From contig JAPHRJ010000021.1 in the NCBI GenBank assembly GCA_026196045.1, positions 1-50,485 of the forward strand: a DNA stretch of 50,485 bases. Direction: 5' to 3'. Source of the stretch: Gammaproteobacteria bacterium. Its GTDB lineage: Bacteria; Pseudomonadota; Gammaproteobacteria; UBA6429; Thiohalophilaceae. Under the pieces are notes generated by a model. That model made no database searches, was not told where the DNA came from, and was given only the letters and a program-made list of their open reading frames with translations. A program made the position numbers and the translations under genes. Below, in pieces: positions 39,208 through 49,638 of the stretch (positions within the stretch are counted from its first letter, which is position 1; each line of letters begins with the position of its first letter).

Positions 39208-42200
39208 TTAAAGTAAGAGGTGGTTGAATGGTTTTGTTAACATTGTTTCAGCTTCCATTGCGGTTACGGGTTTAGAAAAATAATATCCTTGAATATTATG
39301 ACAACCCAGCTCCTTTAATATGGATAATTGTTCTTCGGTTTCCACACCCTCTGCAATGATATCCATATTAAAGTTTTTTGCCACAGCGATAATGGTTTTC
39401 ACCATTCCAATATGTTCTTCTCCAGATGATAGTTTGGATACAAAACTTCGGTCAATCTTTAGAGCGTCAAATGGAAAATTGTGAAGATAACTTAGTGATG
39501 AATAACCAGTGCCGAAATCATCAAGATATAAGTTAATATTACGATTTTTTAAATCCTGAAGCATTTGTGCAGCAGTAACTGGATTTTCCATTAAAATGCT
39601 TTCGGTAATTTCGAGCCGTAGGTTAGTGGTGTCAAATGAAATTGATCGTAAATGATTATCTATCGTAGAAATAAGGTTTTGTTTAAGAAATTGAACTGGA
39701 GATAAATTAACACTGGTGTAAAGTGATTTATATGCAGGATATTTATCATTCCATACTTTTATTTGTCTACATGATTCCTGTAATACCCAAAGACCGATCT
39801 CATTAATAAGGCCAGTTTCTTCTGCTATTGGTATGAATTCGGTTGGTGGTACAAAGCCTCGTTCAGGGTTGTGCCAGCGTAGCAATGATTCAAATCCAAT
39901 AATACGCTCATGTTTTATAGATATAATTGGTTGGAAATGAATACTGAACTCCTGTCGTTCCATCGCTCGGCGAAGTTCAGTTTCTATATCTAGAGTTTTA
40001 ACTGCATGGGCATGCATTTTCTCGTCAAAAATTTCTGTATGCCCATTACCTTTTTGTTTGGCTCGATACATGGCAATGTCGGCATCACGTAATAAATCAC
40101 TAGGAGCCTCATAAGAAACCAGTCCAGGAACAATACCAATACTTGTTGAAGTGTAAACTTCATGGCGTGGAAGCTGTAATGGGTTAACCAGTTCCTGATG
40201 AATTCGACTAGCCGTACTATATGCATCGGAGATATTTTCAATATCATCAAGAAGAATGGCAAATTCATCCCCTCCCAATCTTGCTACAGTATCTACTTCA
40301 CGAACACATTTTTTTAGGCGTGTAGCAACGCTATCCAGGACTTGATCACCTACCGCATGTCCAAGACTGTCATTGATGTTTTTAAACCGATCAAGGTCGA
40401 GGAATAAAACAGCGTATATATATGATGTGTGTCGCTTAGTATGTTTGAGGCATTGTTCTAAGCGATCCATAAATAATGTACGATTTGGAAGTTCAGTTAA
40501 CTCATCGTAATAAGCATAATGCTGTAGCTTTTCTTTATTTTGATGATGGGTAATCATATTGCCCAAAGTATTGCTGATAGTTTTAAGAAAATGTAACTCC
40601 TCACTGTTCTTTTTATGGTGGTGATCCAGGTAAAGGTTAAGCACACCTATAAGCCTGTCTTCAGATTTGATGGGAATACAATAATGACCATGTTCTGTCA
40701 TGCCTTCAAATCTTACGGTATGATTAGCATCAAGACAGGATGAGAATACAATGTCTTGTGTTGCAGCCGTTTTCCCACATAAGCATTCGCCAAAGTTTAC
40801 TTGACTGCATTTTGCTTGAATTGGTTCTGAAACTCCGCGCTGAGCAACCATGTTCAGGTTAGTGGGGTCTTTGTCTACAATGAATATCATCCCTGTTCCC
40901 TGTAACGTTAGCCAGGGAGTAGATAGAATGACATCCAGTGACTGTTCAAGTTTTTCCTTGAATGGTATTGAGTGCATTGATATCTCAAGAACAGCGGCAA
41001 TAACTCGCTGTGAATGATAGTCTTTGCTAATCTGCGCAGCCGCATTTTTTTGTTCACTAATATCACGGATAAAAGAGCTAAATGCAGGTTGCCCTTCTAC
41101 TGAGATGGGTGCAATAGTCAGTTCTATTGGAAATTCAGAGCCATTTTTATTGAGTCCCGTTATTTCTATGCGTTTGTTTAATACTGGGCCTTCACCTGTA
41201 TTGAGATAGGTGCGAATGCCTTGTTGATGTTGTTGACGATATTGTTGCGGGATAATAAGTTCTGCAAGGCTTTTACCTAAAGCCTCATCTGAAGACCATC
41301 CAAAAATGATTTCAGCCTGTTGATTCCAGTTTGTTACAATATCGCTAGAATTAATTGTAATAATGGCATCCAGTGAAGTGCTGAGAATTGAGCGTGTGCT
41401 TGCTTCTGTTTCACCTAATGCGATGTAGGCAAGATTACTGTTTTCTATTCCTTGAGTCAGTTTGCGGTTGCCTAAAAAAATACCTAGTATGCCAAAAAAC
41501 CATAACAGACCATGACCGACACCAATTCTCTTTATCCTGTCATTTGCAGTCTGCTCAAGTTTTAAGAGTGGAATTGACACACTAACACCACCAGCAACGT
41601 CGTCTTTCTTATAACCCTGGTGCTCATGACAATGGAGGCATTTTTCGTCCATTGTCAGTGCATGGATCAATCGTAAATAGGGTTCACCATCAATATCTGA
41701 AATTCCAGTAACTTCCGTAATCCCTGTTTCAAAAGACTCTAGTGCCTTTGTTTCCCATGAGTCAGGTTTATTGTCAGGGTTTATCGGGCGCAGACTACTG
41801 ATATGTCCCTGTGCCTCATTATTCTCTTTTGACATTTCATTGAACTTTCGCACCATAAGAGCCGGATTGATTAAGGTCAGCACACGTCCCGATGGCGTGG
41901 TCACATCCCGTTCAGGAATATAGGCGATATAGGGATCGGGCTGGGTTTCTTCGGTTACCGGGACATATACCCCACCGTGTTTTGTAGCCCATTGGCGAAA
42001 GGTGAGATCTTTGAAAAAATGAGCCCTAAGTTCAGAACTGGCCTGGTCCATTATAAGTGAGCGGACCTGCTGATCATTCCAGAAGAATGAGATAACGATG
42101 GATAACGACCATATGCCAATCATTACCCAGGTCCATATTTTTATTCTGGTTCGGTTTGCTTCAAGCATGTGATCCCGACTTCGGGATGAAGAAAACGCCT

Positions 42201-45018: not shown

Positions 45019-46821
45019 ATGTCTTTAGTTAAAAATAGCATTTGTATTGGTTTTACCCTTCTACTCGTCCAGGGTTGTGCCAGCCAGGCCATCAACCCAC
45101 CTGCCAGTAAACCGGCGGCATCACAGTCTGCCCCATCTGAGAAACAGGTGGAAGCCGCGCCGGTCAAAAAAGTGGGTAAAAAACCGAGTTCGGCAAAAAT
45201 ACTGGCTCCGGCTCCACAACCCAGGCCGGAAGTAAAGCCTCTGAACAGCGAGCTACTCTACCATTTACTGGCTGGAGAAATTGCCGGTCAGCGTGGACAG
45301 ATGGAACAGGCGGTTTCTCACTATATGGTGGTATTGAATCAGGCTCCGGATGCAGAAGTAGCGGAACGGGCCACCCGGATCGCGGTTTTTGCTCGGAATG
45401 ACAAAAATGCGTTAGAGGCTGCTCGGATCTGGGTCAAACTGGTGCCTGATAATATTGAGGCACAGCAGGTCACCGCCGCTTTATTGGTTCGCACGGGTCA
45501 GACCGATGTCGCATTGACTCATTTTGAGAATATCCTGAAACAGACGGAAAACACGGTTCATGATGGGTTTATGTTAATCGTGTCCTTGCTAAGTAAGGAA
45601 CGAGATAAAAAGACCGCCCTGTCCGTAATGGAGAAGCTGGTTGCCGGGCGTCAGCAGAACCCTGCGGCCCTCTATGCTTACAGTCATCTGGCATTATTAG
45701 TCGGTAGCCTGGACAAAGCAGAAACCAATATCAAAAAAGCTCTGGCACTACGTTCTGAATGGACTGAAGCCCATTTGCTACATGGGAATATCCTGATCCG
45801 TCAGGGGCGAGATGCCGATGCACTCAAGATGCTACGGGAAACCGTGGATGAGTATTCGGATGATATAAAGCTGCGTCTGTTTTATGCCCGTAAGCTGGTT
45901 GATGAAAAGCAGTATGAGCAGGCCTATGAGCAGTTCTCTGAAGTGCTGGATCAGGACTCCGAGCATGTTGATGCGATTTATGCTCTGGGTTTATTAAGTA
46001 TTCAGATCAATAAACTGGAGCAGGCTGAAGCACGTTTTCAATCTTTAATTACAAAGAATAAGCGTGTTAGTGAAGCCCATTATTATCTGGGTGAAATCAG
46101 AGAGCGCCAGCAACAGGATGCCGAGGCCATTCAATTCTATAAAAATGTCAGCAAGGAACCTCATTATCTTGAAGCACAGATCCGTGTTGCGGCTCTTCTG
46201 GCAAAAGCAAACAGGCTTGATGAAGCCCGAGCCCATTTACACCGTGTGAAAGCCAATACACTTGAAGTAGAACTGCGCTTATATCTGGCTGAAGGTGAAT
46301 TGTTGAATGCTGCCAGGCAGTATCAGCAAGCCTTTGAGGTTTATACCGATGCCCTGGAGCAAATGCCGGGCAATTCCCGCTTGCTCTATGCGCGAGCACT
46401 GGTAGCCGAAAAATTTGATCGACTGGATATTGCGATTCAGGATATGCAACTTATTTTAAAAAATGAACCAGAGAACATTCAGGCCCTGAATGCCCTGGGT
46501 TATACGTTGGTGGACCGGACTGAGCGTATTGAAGAAGGTTTTGCCTATGTGCAAAAAGCTTTTGCCAAAAAACCCGATGATGCCGCGATCCTGGACAGTA
46601 TGGGCTGGGCCTATTACCGCCTGGGTAAATATGAGCAGGCACTGGAGTATTTACGCCGCGCTTTGAATAAATTGCAGGATTCAGAAATTGCCTCCCATCT
46701 GGGTGAAGTCCTGTGGGTGAGCGGGGATCATGCAGGCGCACGTAAAGTCTGGGATAACGCCCTGCAACAAACTCCAAAGCATGAGTTATTACTGGACGTC
46801 ATCCAGCGCCTTACTAAATGA
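45019..46821 (+). CDS. TPR-repeat lipoprotein upstream of lolB
   Basis: A 600-residue lipoprotein (signal MSLVKNSICIGFTLLLVQGCASQ, lipobox Cys about 20), then a Pro/Ala/Lys linker to about residue 75 and an array of TPR units to the C terminus (for example YHLLAGEIAGQRGQMEQAVSHYMVVLNQAP, AILDSMGWAYYRLGKYEQALEYLRRALNK). It is the typical TPR protein next to lolB in gammaproteobacteria, probably an outer-membrane scaffold, function uncertain. It overlaps lolB by 4 bases (46818-46821), so translation is coupled. Its upstream region is AT-rich with a TATAAT at 44973-44978, but no matched -35. Confidence 0.88.
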   Translation: MSLVKNSICIGFTLLLVQGCASQAINPPASKPAASQSAPSEKQVEAAPVKKVGKKPSSAKILAPAPQPRPEVKPLNSELLYHLLAGEIAGQRGQMEQAVSHYMVVLNQAPDAEVAERATRIAVFARNDKNALEAARIWVKLVPDNIEAQQVTAALLVRTGQTDVALTHFENILKQTENTVHDGFMLIVSLLSKERDKKTALSVMEKLVAGRQQNPAALYAYSHLALLVGSLDKAETNIKKALALRSEWTEAHLLHGNILIRQGRDADALKMLRETVDEYSDDIKLRLFYARKLVDEKQYEQAYEQFSEVLDQDSEHVDAIYALGLLSIQINKLEQAEARFQSLITKNKRVSEAHYYLGEIRERQQQDAEAIQFYKNVSKEPHYLEAQIRVAALLAKANRLDEARAHLHRVKANTLEVELRLYLAEGELLNAARQYQQAFEVYTDALEQMPGNSRLLYARALVAEKFDRLDIAIQDMQLILKNEPENIQALNALGYTLVDRTERIEEGFAYVQKAFAKKPDDAAILDSMGWAYYRLGKYEQALEYLRRALNKLQDSEIASHLGEVLWVSGDHAGARKVWDNALQQTPKHELLLDVIQRLTK

Positions 46822-47474: not shown

Positions 47475-48329
47475 TTGCCTGATCTAACTACTGAATTAAG
47501 CTGGCCAGCTCCGGCCAAACTTAACCTTTTTTTGCATATCACAGGTCAACGTGATGATGGCTATCACCTGCTGCAAACGGTCTTTCAGATCCTGGACTAT
47601 GGTGACGAACTGCGGTTTTCTCCTCGCGATGATGGCCAGATCGTTCGGGTCACTGAGGTCGATGGTGTAGCAGAAGAGCAGGATCTTATTGTACGTGCCG
47701 CTCGTTTATTGCAATCCCATACGGGCGTCACTCAGGGCATAGATATTGAGATTGATAAGAAGCTACCCATGGGGGGTGGACTCGGTGGTGGCAGCTCGGA
47801 TGCGGCGACAACATTGTTTGCCCTCAACCAGATCTGGAAATGTGGGCTGTCAATTGATGAACTGACTGCATTGGGCATAAAGCTGGGAGCAGATGTTCCC
47901 GTCTTCGTTCGTGGCAAATCGGCCTGGGCGGAAGGGGTTGGAGAGCAACTGGAACCAATTATTTTGCCAGAACCCTGGTTTTTGGTCCTAATTCCCCCTG
48001 TTCATGCTTCAACAGCCCATGTTTTTTCAAATCCACAATTGCGGCGCGATTGCCCACCGATTACAATACGCGACTTTCTCGCCGGGTCAGTGACGGAAAA
48101 TGTCTGTGAACCACTGGTTCGCGAAAGCTTTCCTGAAGTGGAAGCGGCATTACAGGACTTAAGTCAGTATGCTGAAGCGAGAATGACGGGAACGGGAGCT
48201 TGTGTTTTTGCTGCCTTTGAAACGCAATCTGCGGCACAAACCGCATTGACGGCGCTAAAAGAAAACTGGCAGGGATTCGTAGCTCAAGGTGTGAATATTT
48301 CACCTTTATTAGTAAGAGCAGGCTGTTAG
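47475..48329 (+). CDS. ispE: 4-diphosphocytidyl-2-C-methyl-D-erythritol kinase
   Basis: A 284-residue GHMP kinase of the MEP isoprenoid pathway. Motifs: PAPAKLNLFLHITGQRDDGYHLLQTVFQIL, the Gly-rich loop KLPMGGGLGGGSSDAATTLFALN, and ARMTGTGACVFAAFET. The start is a TTG at 47475; no ATG gives a complete N terminus. It is placed between lolB and tRNA-Gln as in related bacteria. Confidence 0.96.
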   Translation: MPDLTTELSWPAPAKLNLFLHITGQRDDGYHLLQTVFQILDYGDELRFSPRDDGQIVRVTEVDGVAEEQDLIVRAARLLQSHTGVTQGIDIEIDKKLPMGGGLGGGSSDAATTLFALNQIWKCGLSIDELTALGIKLGADVPVFVRGKSAWAEGVGEQLEPIILPEPWFLVLIPPVHASTAHVFSNPQLRRDCPPITIRDFLAGSVTENVCEPLVRESFPEVEAALQDLSQYAEARMTGTGACVFAAFETQSAAQTALTALKENWQGFVAQGVNISPLLVRAGC

Positions 48330-48370
48330 CTGTTCGGCGGCTAATTTTAAAACTCGTCGATTTGATTTAT

Positions 48371-48445
48371 TGGGGCGTCGCCAAGCGGTAAGGCACTGGA
48401 TTTTGATTCCAGCATGCGCAGGTTCGAATCCTGCCGCCCCAGCCA
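48371..48445 (+). tRNA. tRNA-Gln (anticodon TTG)
   Basis: A 75-base cloverleaf: acceptor TGGGGCG pairs with CGCCCCA, anticodon loop CTGGATTTTGATTCCAG with anticodon TTG, T arm GCAGGTTCGAATCCTGC, and an encoded CCA. It lies between ispE and prs, which is the common gammaproteobacterial position. The last bases are repeated 170 bases downstream. Confidence 0.95.
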
Positions 48446-48616
48446 TTTTAAGCAAATATGCTGGAAGCAGGATGAGAACCGAGTAATCAATTAAACTCAG
48501 GTTCGACAAATCCACCGGAGGTGGATTTGAACAGTGGAGACTATTTGAAAAATAGTCGACACTGGCCCCGAAGGGGTGAAGGGCGTAGCCCTGAATAATC
48601 CTGCCGCCCCAGCCAT
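48427..48616 (+). repeat. Direct repeat of the tRNA-Gln 3' end around a hairpin-rich block
   Basis: The 20 bases at 48427-48446 (T arm end, acceptor, CCA, T) recur exactly at 48597-48616. The 150 bases between hold four hairpins: AAATCCACC/GGTGGATTT (48508-48528), GACTATT/AATAGTC (48539-48557), CCCC/GGGG (48566-48576) and AGGGC/GCCCT (48580-48592), plus a second T-arm-like GGTTCGAC. It looks like an att-site-like duplication or a tRNA-derived repeat. Confidence 0.8.
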
Positions 48617-48687
48617 ATACTTTGAAGGACTAGGGACTAAGCAGTAGTACTTCATTTGAATCTGATATGAAAGCCACGGGGTAAATA

Positions 48688-49638
48688 ATGGCCGATAGCA
48701 TGATGGTCTTTACGGGGACTTCAAACCCGCAGTTGGCACAGGACATTGTGGCGCGGCTGAATATGCCATTGGGTAAAGCCCTGGTAGGCCAGTTCAGTGA
48801 TGGTGAAGTAATGGTTGAAGTCATGGAAAACGTCCGCGGTCGGGATGTTTTTATTGTTCAGCCTACCTGTGCACCTACTAATGATAACCTGATGGAATTA
48901 TTAGTAATGGTTGATGCGATGCGACGTTCATCGGCAGCCAGAGTTACAGCCGTTATTCCTTATTTTGGTTATGCGCGTCAGGATAGACGCCCACGTTCAG
49001 CCAGGGTTCCGATTACGGCCAAGGTCGTGGCCGACATGATTGGTGTCGCGGGAACAGATCGTGTGTTGACGGTTGATTTACATGCCGATCAGATCCAGGG
49101 GTTTTTTGATATCCCGGTGGATAATGTTTATGCCTCACCTATTTTGTTGGGTGATATCTGGCGGCAAAAACACCCGAACGTAATGGTGGTTTCACCGGAC
49201 GTGGGTGGTGTTGTACGTGCAAGGGCACTGGCCAAACGTCTGGATGATGCGGAACTGGCGATTATTGATAAACGCCGGCCACGACCCAATGAAGCTAAAG
49301 TCATGAACATCATTGGTGATGTTAAAGGCCGGACCTGTATTATCGTGGATGATCTGGTCGATACTGCGGGCACTCTGTGTCAGGCGGCGGGAGCATTGAA
49401 AGCACATGGTGCTTCGAAAGTGGTGGCGTATTGTACCCATGCGGTACTATCAGGCCCGGCGATAGAAAATGTAAACAACTCAGAGCTGGACGAGTTGGTT
49501 GTCACAAATACGATTCCACTATCAGGTGCCGCTCAGACCTGTGGTCGGATTCGTCAGTTGAGTATTGCAGAATTACTGGCCGAGACCATGCGCCGGATCA
49601 GTAGCGAAGAATCTGTCAGTTCGTTATACGTTGATTAA
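48688..49638 (+). CDS. prs: Ribose-phosphate pyrophosphokinase
   Basis: A 316-residue PRPP synthetase that makes PRPP from ribose-5-phosphate and ATP for nucleotide, His and Trp synthesis. Motifs: [50 protein letters not shown] and the PRPP loop [14 protein letters not shown]. Length equals the E. coli protein (315). It follows the tRNA block and precedes rplY. Confidence 0.98.

Follow-up and report, generated by a model that had tools for sequence, protein, structure and literature searches.

The window, that is, the whole stretch of 50,485 nucleotides that was analysed, carries on its forward strand ispE (47475–48329), an intact tRNA-Gln gene with anticodon TTG and an encoded CCA end (48371–48445), prs (48688–49638) and the gene for ribosomal protein L25 (49770–50411). 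The tRNA gene was recognized by ARAGORN and by the Rfam tRNA model (65.4 bits). Its 3' end, bases 58–76 together with one T, constitutes the sequence AATCCTGCCGCCCCAGCCAT, which is found at 48427–48446 and again, on the same strand, at 48597–48616, with 100% identity and a spacing of 170. The exact copy of the tRNA-Gln end described in the sequence-only reading is therefore borne out, the copy extending over 19 tRNA bases. In a scan of the whole window, this pair was the only exact dispersed repeat of at least 20 bases, the remaining repeat families being either diverged or a low-complexity array; by our own arithmetic, such pairs are expected by chance within 700 bases at about 2e-7. The duplicated end closes a unit located directly downstream of tRNA-Gln and on the same strand, with which it is predicted to be co-transcribed. 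No terminator-like site, defined by the stem and T run of an intrinsic terminator array, was found in 48250–48750, and none lies between tRNA-Gln and prs.

Organization of the structured unit

The block is strongly structured, with a predicted folding energy of −74.5 kcal/mol versus a mean of −41.1 for shuffled sequences (z = −8.74), and none of the 200 shuffles folded as well. Hairpins had been noted in the block at the outset, but it comprises five of them (P2–P6) and not four, all enclosed by a closing stem, P1. The tRNA is separated from the structured unit by a trailer that is unpaired in the fold (48446–48459, forward strand, as are all features of the unit). It is followed by an upstream arm, GCTGGAAGCAGGATGAGAACC (48460–48480), that is antisense to the 3' part of the tRNA and provides the 5' strand of P1 (48460–48464 and 48467–48473); in the fold prediction, the 3' strand of the stem is the duplicated tRNA end (48598–48604 and 48609–48613). 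Hairpin P2, of the form GAACC...GGTTC, spans 48476–48504 and overlaps a T-arm-like motif, CAGGTTCGA (48498–48506). The second T-arm-like motif noticed earlier is real and lies directly before the four-hairpin core.

The core (48507–48597, C...GAATA) begins after the final GA of this motif and is delimited by folding, by covariation and by a match to a core model (48505–48598, 62.2 bits). It contains hairpins P3 (48507–48529), P4 (48532–48564), P5 (48565–48577) and P6 (48580–48592). The unit can thus be described as an extra tRNA-Gln 3' end (58–76) preceded by the T-arm piece CAGGTTCGA and, further upstream, by the antisense arm, with a core of about 90 bases and four hairpins located between GA and ATCC, at the point where the T-loop would be continuous. 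A protein-coding role was rejected, as the open reading frames that cover the block read the T-arm in antisense, are unsupported and overlap it by chance. A hammerhead or other catalytic RNA was likewise discarded, Rfam showing nothing beyond the tRNA and a sub-threshold match to RtT.

The segment 48458–48480 is predicted to pair with the 3' end of the tRNA (48427–48446) at least as well as with the copy (48597–48616), the arm reaching −25.1 kcal/mol with the former versus −19.4 with the latter. The precursor is predicted to be bistable, since the form with the native acceptor stem (−106.8) and the swapped form (−107.8) are of nearly equal stability.

Homology to RtT and distribution of the units

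The tRNA-linked repeats (TLRs) of Escherichia coli were reportedly treated by Rudd in 1999. TLRs were first described in 1978, number 22 in E. coli K-12 at ten loci, and have as their hallmark an 18–19-base 3' end identical to that of the tRNA or rRNA gene just upstream (PMC8144298). The sequence-only reading had listed a tRNA-linked repeat among its options, and this was the right one, the class being an established one (PMC8144298). The block is assigned to the TLRs as a homologue of the RtT units at E. coli tyrT, and the explanation given here for it is, taken as a whole, probable. In a permissive Rfam scan, the window unit covers positions 1–130 of the 130 positions of the RtT model (RF00391) at 48451–48615, with 36.9 bits and E 1.1e-5. 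Because this score is below the curated gathering cut-off of 45 bits, which two relatives do pass, the unit is filed under the TLR class and called an RtT homologue. It displays the complete RtT anatomy: a closing stem with a tail copy, a GAGAA arm, GGTTCGAC, a series of hairpins and a GARTAATCC end.

E. coli K-12 has three 178-base units in tandem behind tyrV, with their parts in the same order as in the window and a 19-base tail copy, and one more unit between tyrT and tyrV. These RtT/rttR units, located behind tRNA-Tyr in the tyrT operon, share with the window unit its layout, the GGAUGAGAA arm, GGTTCGAC, GCCCGAAGGGC and GAGTAATCC, and are matched by the core model at 39–53 bits. By contrast, the window unit adjoins tRNA-Gln, has a different sequence, is single instead of several, falls below the Rfam cut-off and has a longer P4 hairpin. 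The other E. coli TLRs, including RrA, RrB and RrF in rrnA, rrnB and rrnD, likewise have an 18–19-base 3' end identical to that of the upstream RNA gene; the rrn units copy the 5S end and are located between two terminators, whereas that of the window repeats the tRNA-Gln end, with no terminator-like site before prs. The rrnA, rrnB and rrnD units are sRNAs, an RNase E-type processing of the trailer was proposed for RrB, and the starvation phenotype earlier attributed to the tyrT unit was retracted (PMC8144298).

Aggregatibacter sRNA 22 (AaHKsRNA22, RF02902) matches weakly over the window core (19.7 bits, E 0.09, cut-off 39.8), with the same order of hairpins and the same GAAC linker. RF00391 and RF02902, both sub-threshold on the window unit, probably form one superfamily. 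Where the element is present at tRNA-Tyr and tRNA-Ser loci, sX4 (RF02223) gives matches below its threshold.

Two covariance models were used, R1 for the whole unit and R2 for the core only, and all family matches are model-based. R1 matched 111 of the 276 genomes sampled from the class (E <= 0.001). The units found adjoin Gln, Ser, Tyr, Arg, Pro, Glu, Val and Thr tRNAs, and an upstream tRNA lies within the fetched flank in 173 of 209 unique matches, a share of tRNA contexts that is biased upward because R1 includes the tRNA-derived ends. DNA and RtT searches of relatives located units beside Gln, Ser, Arg, Pro, Val and Tyr tRNAs, often in tandem, which refutes the possibility that the block occurs only here, with no copies near tRNAs in relatives. 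In a phylum-wide draw, 47 of 299 genomes were matched (E <= 1e-6), 22 of them outside the class (21 from one family and one from another), and one of the named loci is zetaproteobacterial.

The tail is specific for the tRNA that precedes it. Among the 173 units, it is identical to the upstream tRNA at 19/19 positions in 99 and at 18/19 in 23, while tails of other isotypes never share more than 15 identical bases. In the first set of units, the copy almost always spans 19 bases, which places its start at tRNA base 58, in the T-loop. A corresponding relation holds for the arm: in 92 of 102 units, it scores higher against the tRNA of its own unit than against those of other isotypes. Exact antisense runs between arm and tRNA can be as long as 20 bases; 44 of them have 10 bases or more, and 18 of these extend across the insertion point. 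P1 covaries on both sides across tRNA types, with double changes in 6 of its 11 pairs.

The shared core inside and outside tRNA contexts

Every unit carries the core, located at ..GA^A... It measures about 75–90 bases between ..GA and A.. and has the organization C-hairpin-GAAC-hairpin-GG-CCCGAAGGG-hairpin-GARTA. Pairing in the core hairpins is 93%, and double-changed cells number 479 versus 138 in shuffles, figures that are favoured by an alignment fitted to the model. R2 was run on ten genomes picked as rich in units. A search for the block in the genome and near other tRNAs had been suggested in the sequence-only reading, and it was productive: the window's own genome has five copies, placed at tRNA-Gln (the window unit), at tRNA-Arg(CCT), at tRNA-Pro(TGG) and in a tandem pair at a contig end (C139), and a further genome, G254, has 68. 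The tail of the C139 pair occurs nowhere else in the assembly; that no tRNA is found behind this pair is probably due to the contig end there.

Several cores interrupt spare tRNA genes. In loci L184 and L138, a spare tRNA-Ser is interrupted both in the D-loop (GGCTGA^, GGTCGA^AAGC) and in the T-loop (TTCGA^ATCC), L141 and L160 contain spare tRNA-Ser copies with a core in the D-loop, and in L189 the core is in the T-loop of a spare tRNA-Ser that has an intact copy just downstream. Intact tRNA genes follow the interrupted copies in all five of these loci. In L195, comparison with tRNA-Ser(TGA) suggests that the core follows CTTGA in the anticodon arm of a tRNA-Ser. Excision of the core in silico yields a tRNA recognized by ARAGORN in L189 and in L124, another interrupted spare tRNA-Ser. 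A true intron, in which the interrupted tRNA would be the only copy, was not found among these, L189 having its intact copy and the tRNA of L124 being without a proper 3' end.

The core is also present in the rrnB T1–T2 spacer of E. coli K-12 (positions 338–413 of NC_000913.3 4171500–4172400; 60.7 bits, E 1.5e-14). The layout there is GAGTAGGA|core|AACTGCCAGGCAT, which places the core within a second 5S 3' end. Outside tRNA contexts, closure of a hairpin by the flanks is slightly better than in permuted controls (4/500 permutations), a small effect that gives no more than a weak signal for the targeting of hairpin loops there. Seven near-identical dispersed cores (L250–L256) were observed in genome G143 within a different, longer repeat with no adjacent tRNA.

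In G254, most cores lie within a dispersed repeat of about 150 bases. A search with joined flanks revealed about 40 near-identical full-length copies of this repeat without the core, alongside dozens with it. The empty site reads CTCTGGGA|GAGGGATGG and the filled site CTCTGGGA|core|CAGGGATGG, with one extra base change at the junction and no long target duplication. The core is thus precisely present or absent in matching repeats. We infer that the direction is insertion and not precise excision. The repeat itself (L230–L249, L270–L299) is MITE-like, with ends TTAAC...GTTAA, and the G254 cores may have spread by riding on it.

Presence of the unit varies even within genera. At the orthologous tRNA-Gln/prs site, the tail copy is present in 13 of 28 genomes of the family and absent in 15, with genera mixed. 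Mean core similarity is 0.706 within a genome at different tRNAs versus 0.639 between genomes at the same tRNA, and the nearest-neighbour core is in the same genome 12 times versus 0.94 in shuffles (maximum 8 in 2000). This similarity within genomes could derive in part from base composition or gene conversion.

Proposed origin and competing explanations

We propose that the unit would start as a surplus duplicate of the 3' part of an RNA gene, into whose hairpin or loop a core inserts, at a ..GA^A.. site on the 3' side. The repeat would then be what this duplicate retains downstream of the core, which would account for its constant length of 18–19 bases, since entry at T-loop base 58 leaves a copy of 19 at every tRNA (58 to CCA) and of about 18 at 5S. 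The 18–19-base repeat is thus likely to be the part of this duplicate beyond the core insertion, and not an att site or a target duplication. The core itself is likely to be a module that spreads by entering hairpins or RNA-gene loops at ..GA^A.. sites on their 3' side. Single-strand transposition of the Y1/HUH type (IS200/605- or REP-like) would involve a Y1 transposase and place the insert 3' of a short fixed motif with no duplication of the target; at core sites, a ..GA^ motif and no target duplication were observed. A further step, which we advance tentatively, is that the core is an unrecognised, gene-less insertion element of about 80 bases, spread by an enzyme acting on hairpins and preferring ..GA^A.. 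sites in the 3' side of tRNA T-, D- and anticodon loops and of intergenic palindromes, so that all TLRs, including that of rrnB T1–T2, would be its insertion scars. Such an enzyme would act on single-stranded DNA, or on RNA, in which case reverse insertion would precede the copying into DNA. The G-U share in the core is low (2–3.5%), but tRNA stems are similar (1.3% and 5.0%), and it therefore does not decide between a DNA and an RNA hairpin.

Expression of the unit can be proposed with less certainty. By analogy with tyrT and rrnB, it may lie in the tRNA-Gln transcript as a 3' trailer, a placement suggested by the lack of a terminator before prs. The copied end could let the enzymes that process tRNA and 5S 3' ends, such as RNase E, cut the trailer and release a discrete structured RNA. 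An RNA processed by tRNA enzymes had also been one of the three options of the sequence-only reading. The arm, the tRNA end and the copy could, judging from the predicted folds, exchange partners, by which the unit may modulate the maturation of its tRNA. Several tRNA-Ser units have a terminator between the tRNA and the core, so that transcription of the unit is not assured there.

An exact duplication of a tRNA 3' end from the T-loop is the classic layout of T-loop att sites, and the window pair had been compared to attL and attR and taken for a possible integration remnant. This layout would result if a satellite or prophage had integrated at the T-loop end of tRNA-Gln and then collapsed to a remnant; tandem units of 176–186 bases do occur, and partial tRNA genes are a common outcome of mobile-element integration (PMC9897764). 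However, the 150-base interval holds no integrase, no cargo and no gene of its own, the antisense arm and the conserved hairpins belong to the unit, and the core is found in non-tRNA repeats as well. Moreover, the compact unit recurs at many tRNAs, often in tandem, each time with the tail of its own tRNA; because the tails derive from eight tRNA isotypes and from 5S rRNA, one att specificity cannot explain them. The core common to the isotypes largely refutes the att reading, and an integration remnant at this locus is very improbable.

The strong structural conservation and covariation, the many units at one orthologous locus and the binding of CsrA and Hfq in vitro by the rrnA, rrnB and rrnD relatives (PMC8144298) are what one would expect of a functional RNA inherited purely vertically, that is, of old RtT-like regulatory or processing trailers maintained by selection and gene conversion around an immobile core. 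Such descent is unlikely, as the grouping of cores follows the genome more than the tRNA type, presence at the orthologous site varies within genera, and interrupted spare tRNA genes and dispersed non-tRNA copies of the core exist. The sense–antisense–sense order of the unit and the long exact antisense runs, 18 of 44 of them across the insertion point, would fit a quasi-palindrome or template switch, in which replication slippage at the tRNA hairpin would produce the tail copy and the arm, and the hairpins would be by-products of self-templated synthesis. This mechanism does not account for the presence, at many tRNAs, of one homologous core in which the motifs GAAC, GGCCCGAAGGGC and GARTAA are conserved, and we hold it to be distinctly unlikely as the source of the unit; at most, it may account for the maintained complementarity of the arm.

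In the open-access literature, neither the origin nor the function of TLRs, known since 1978, has been agreed upon. Entry of the core at a fixed site offers a testable reason for the constant 18–19-base copy. New as well are the joining of the tyrT, rrn and many fresh units through one common core, the cores in T- and D-loops and apparently an anticodon loop of spare tRNAs, and repeats that otherwise match but differ precisely by the core. Were the core mobile, a common terminator part of expression vectors, the rrnB T1–T2 spacer, would harbour a mobile-element relative, and a new kind of insertion would have tRNA loops as its repeated target.

Two other repeats of the window were observed. 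A low-complexity array with a 15-base period, (GCTAAGAAGAAGGTA)n, occupies 129–380 and would encode a lysine/alanine-rich tail of the histone H1-like or AlgP-like type. A 21-base near-repeat, CTCGTTCAGGGTTGTGCCAGC, is found at 39858–39878 and 45064–45084, with 95% identity and 5.2 kb apart.
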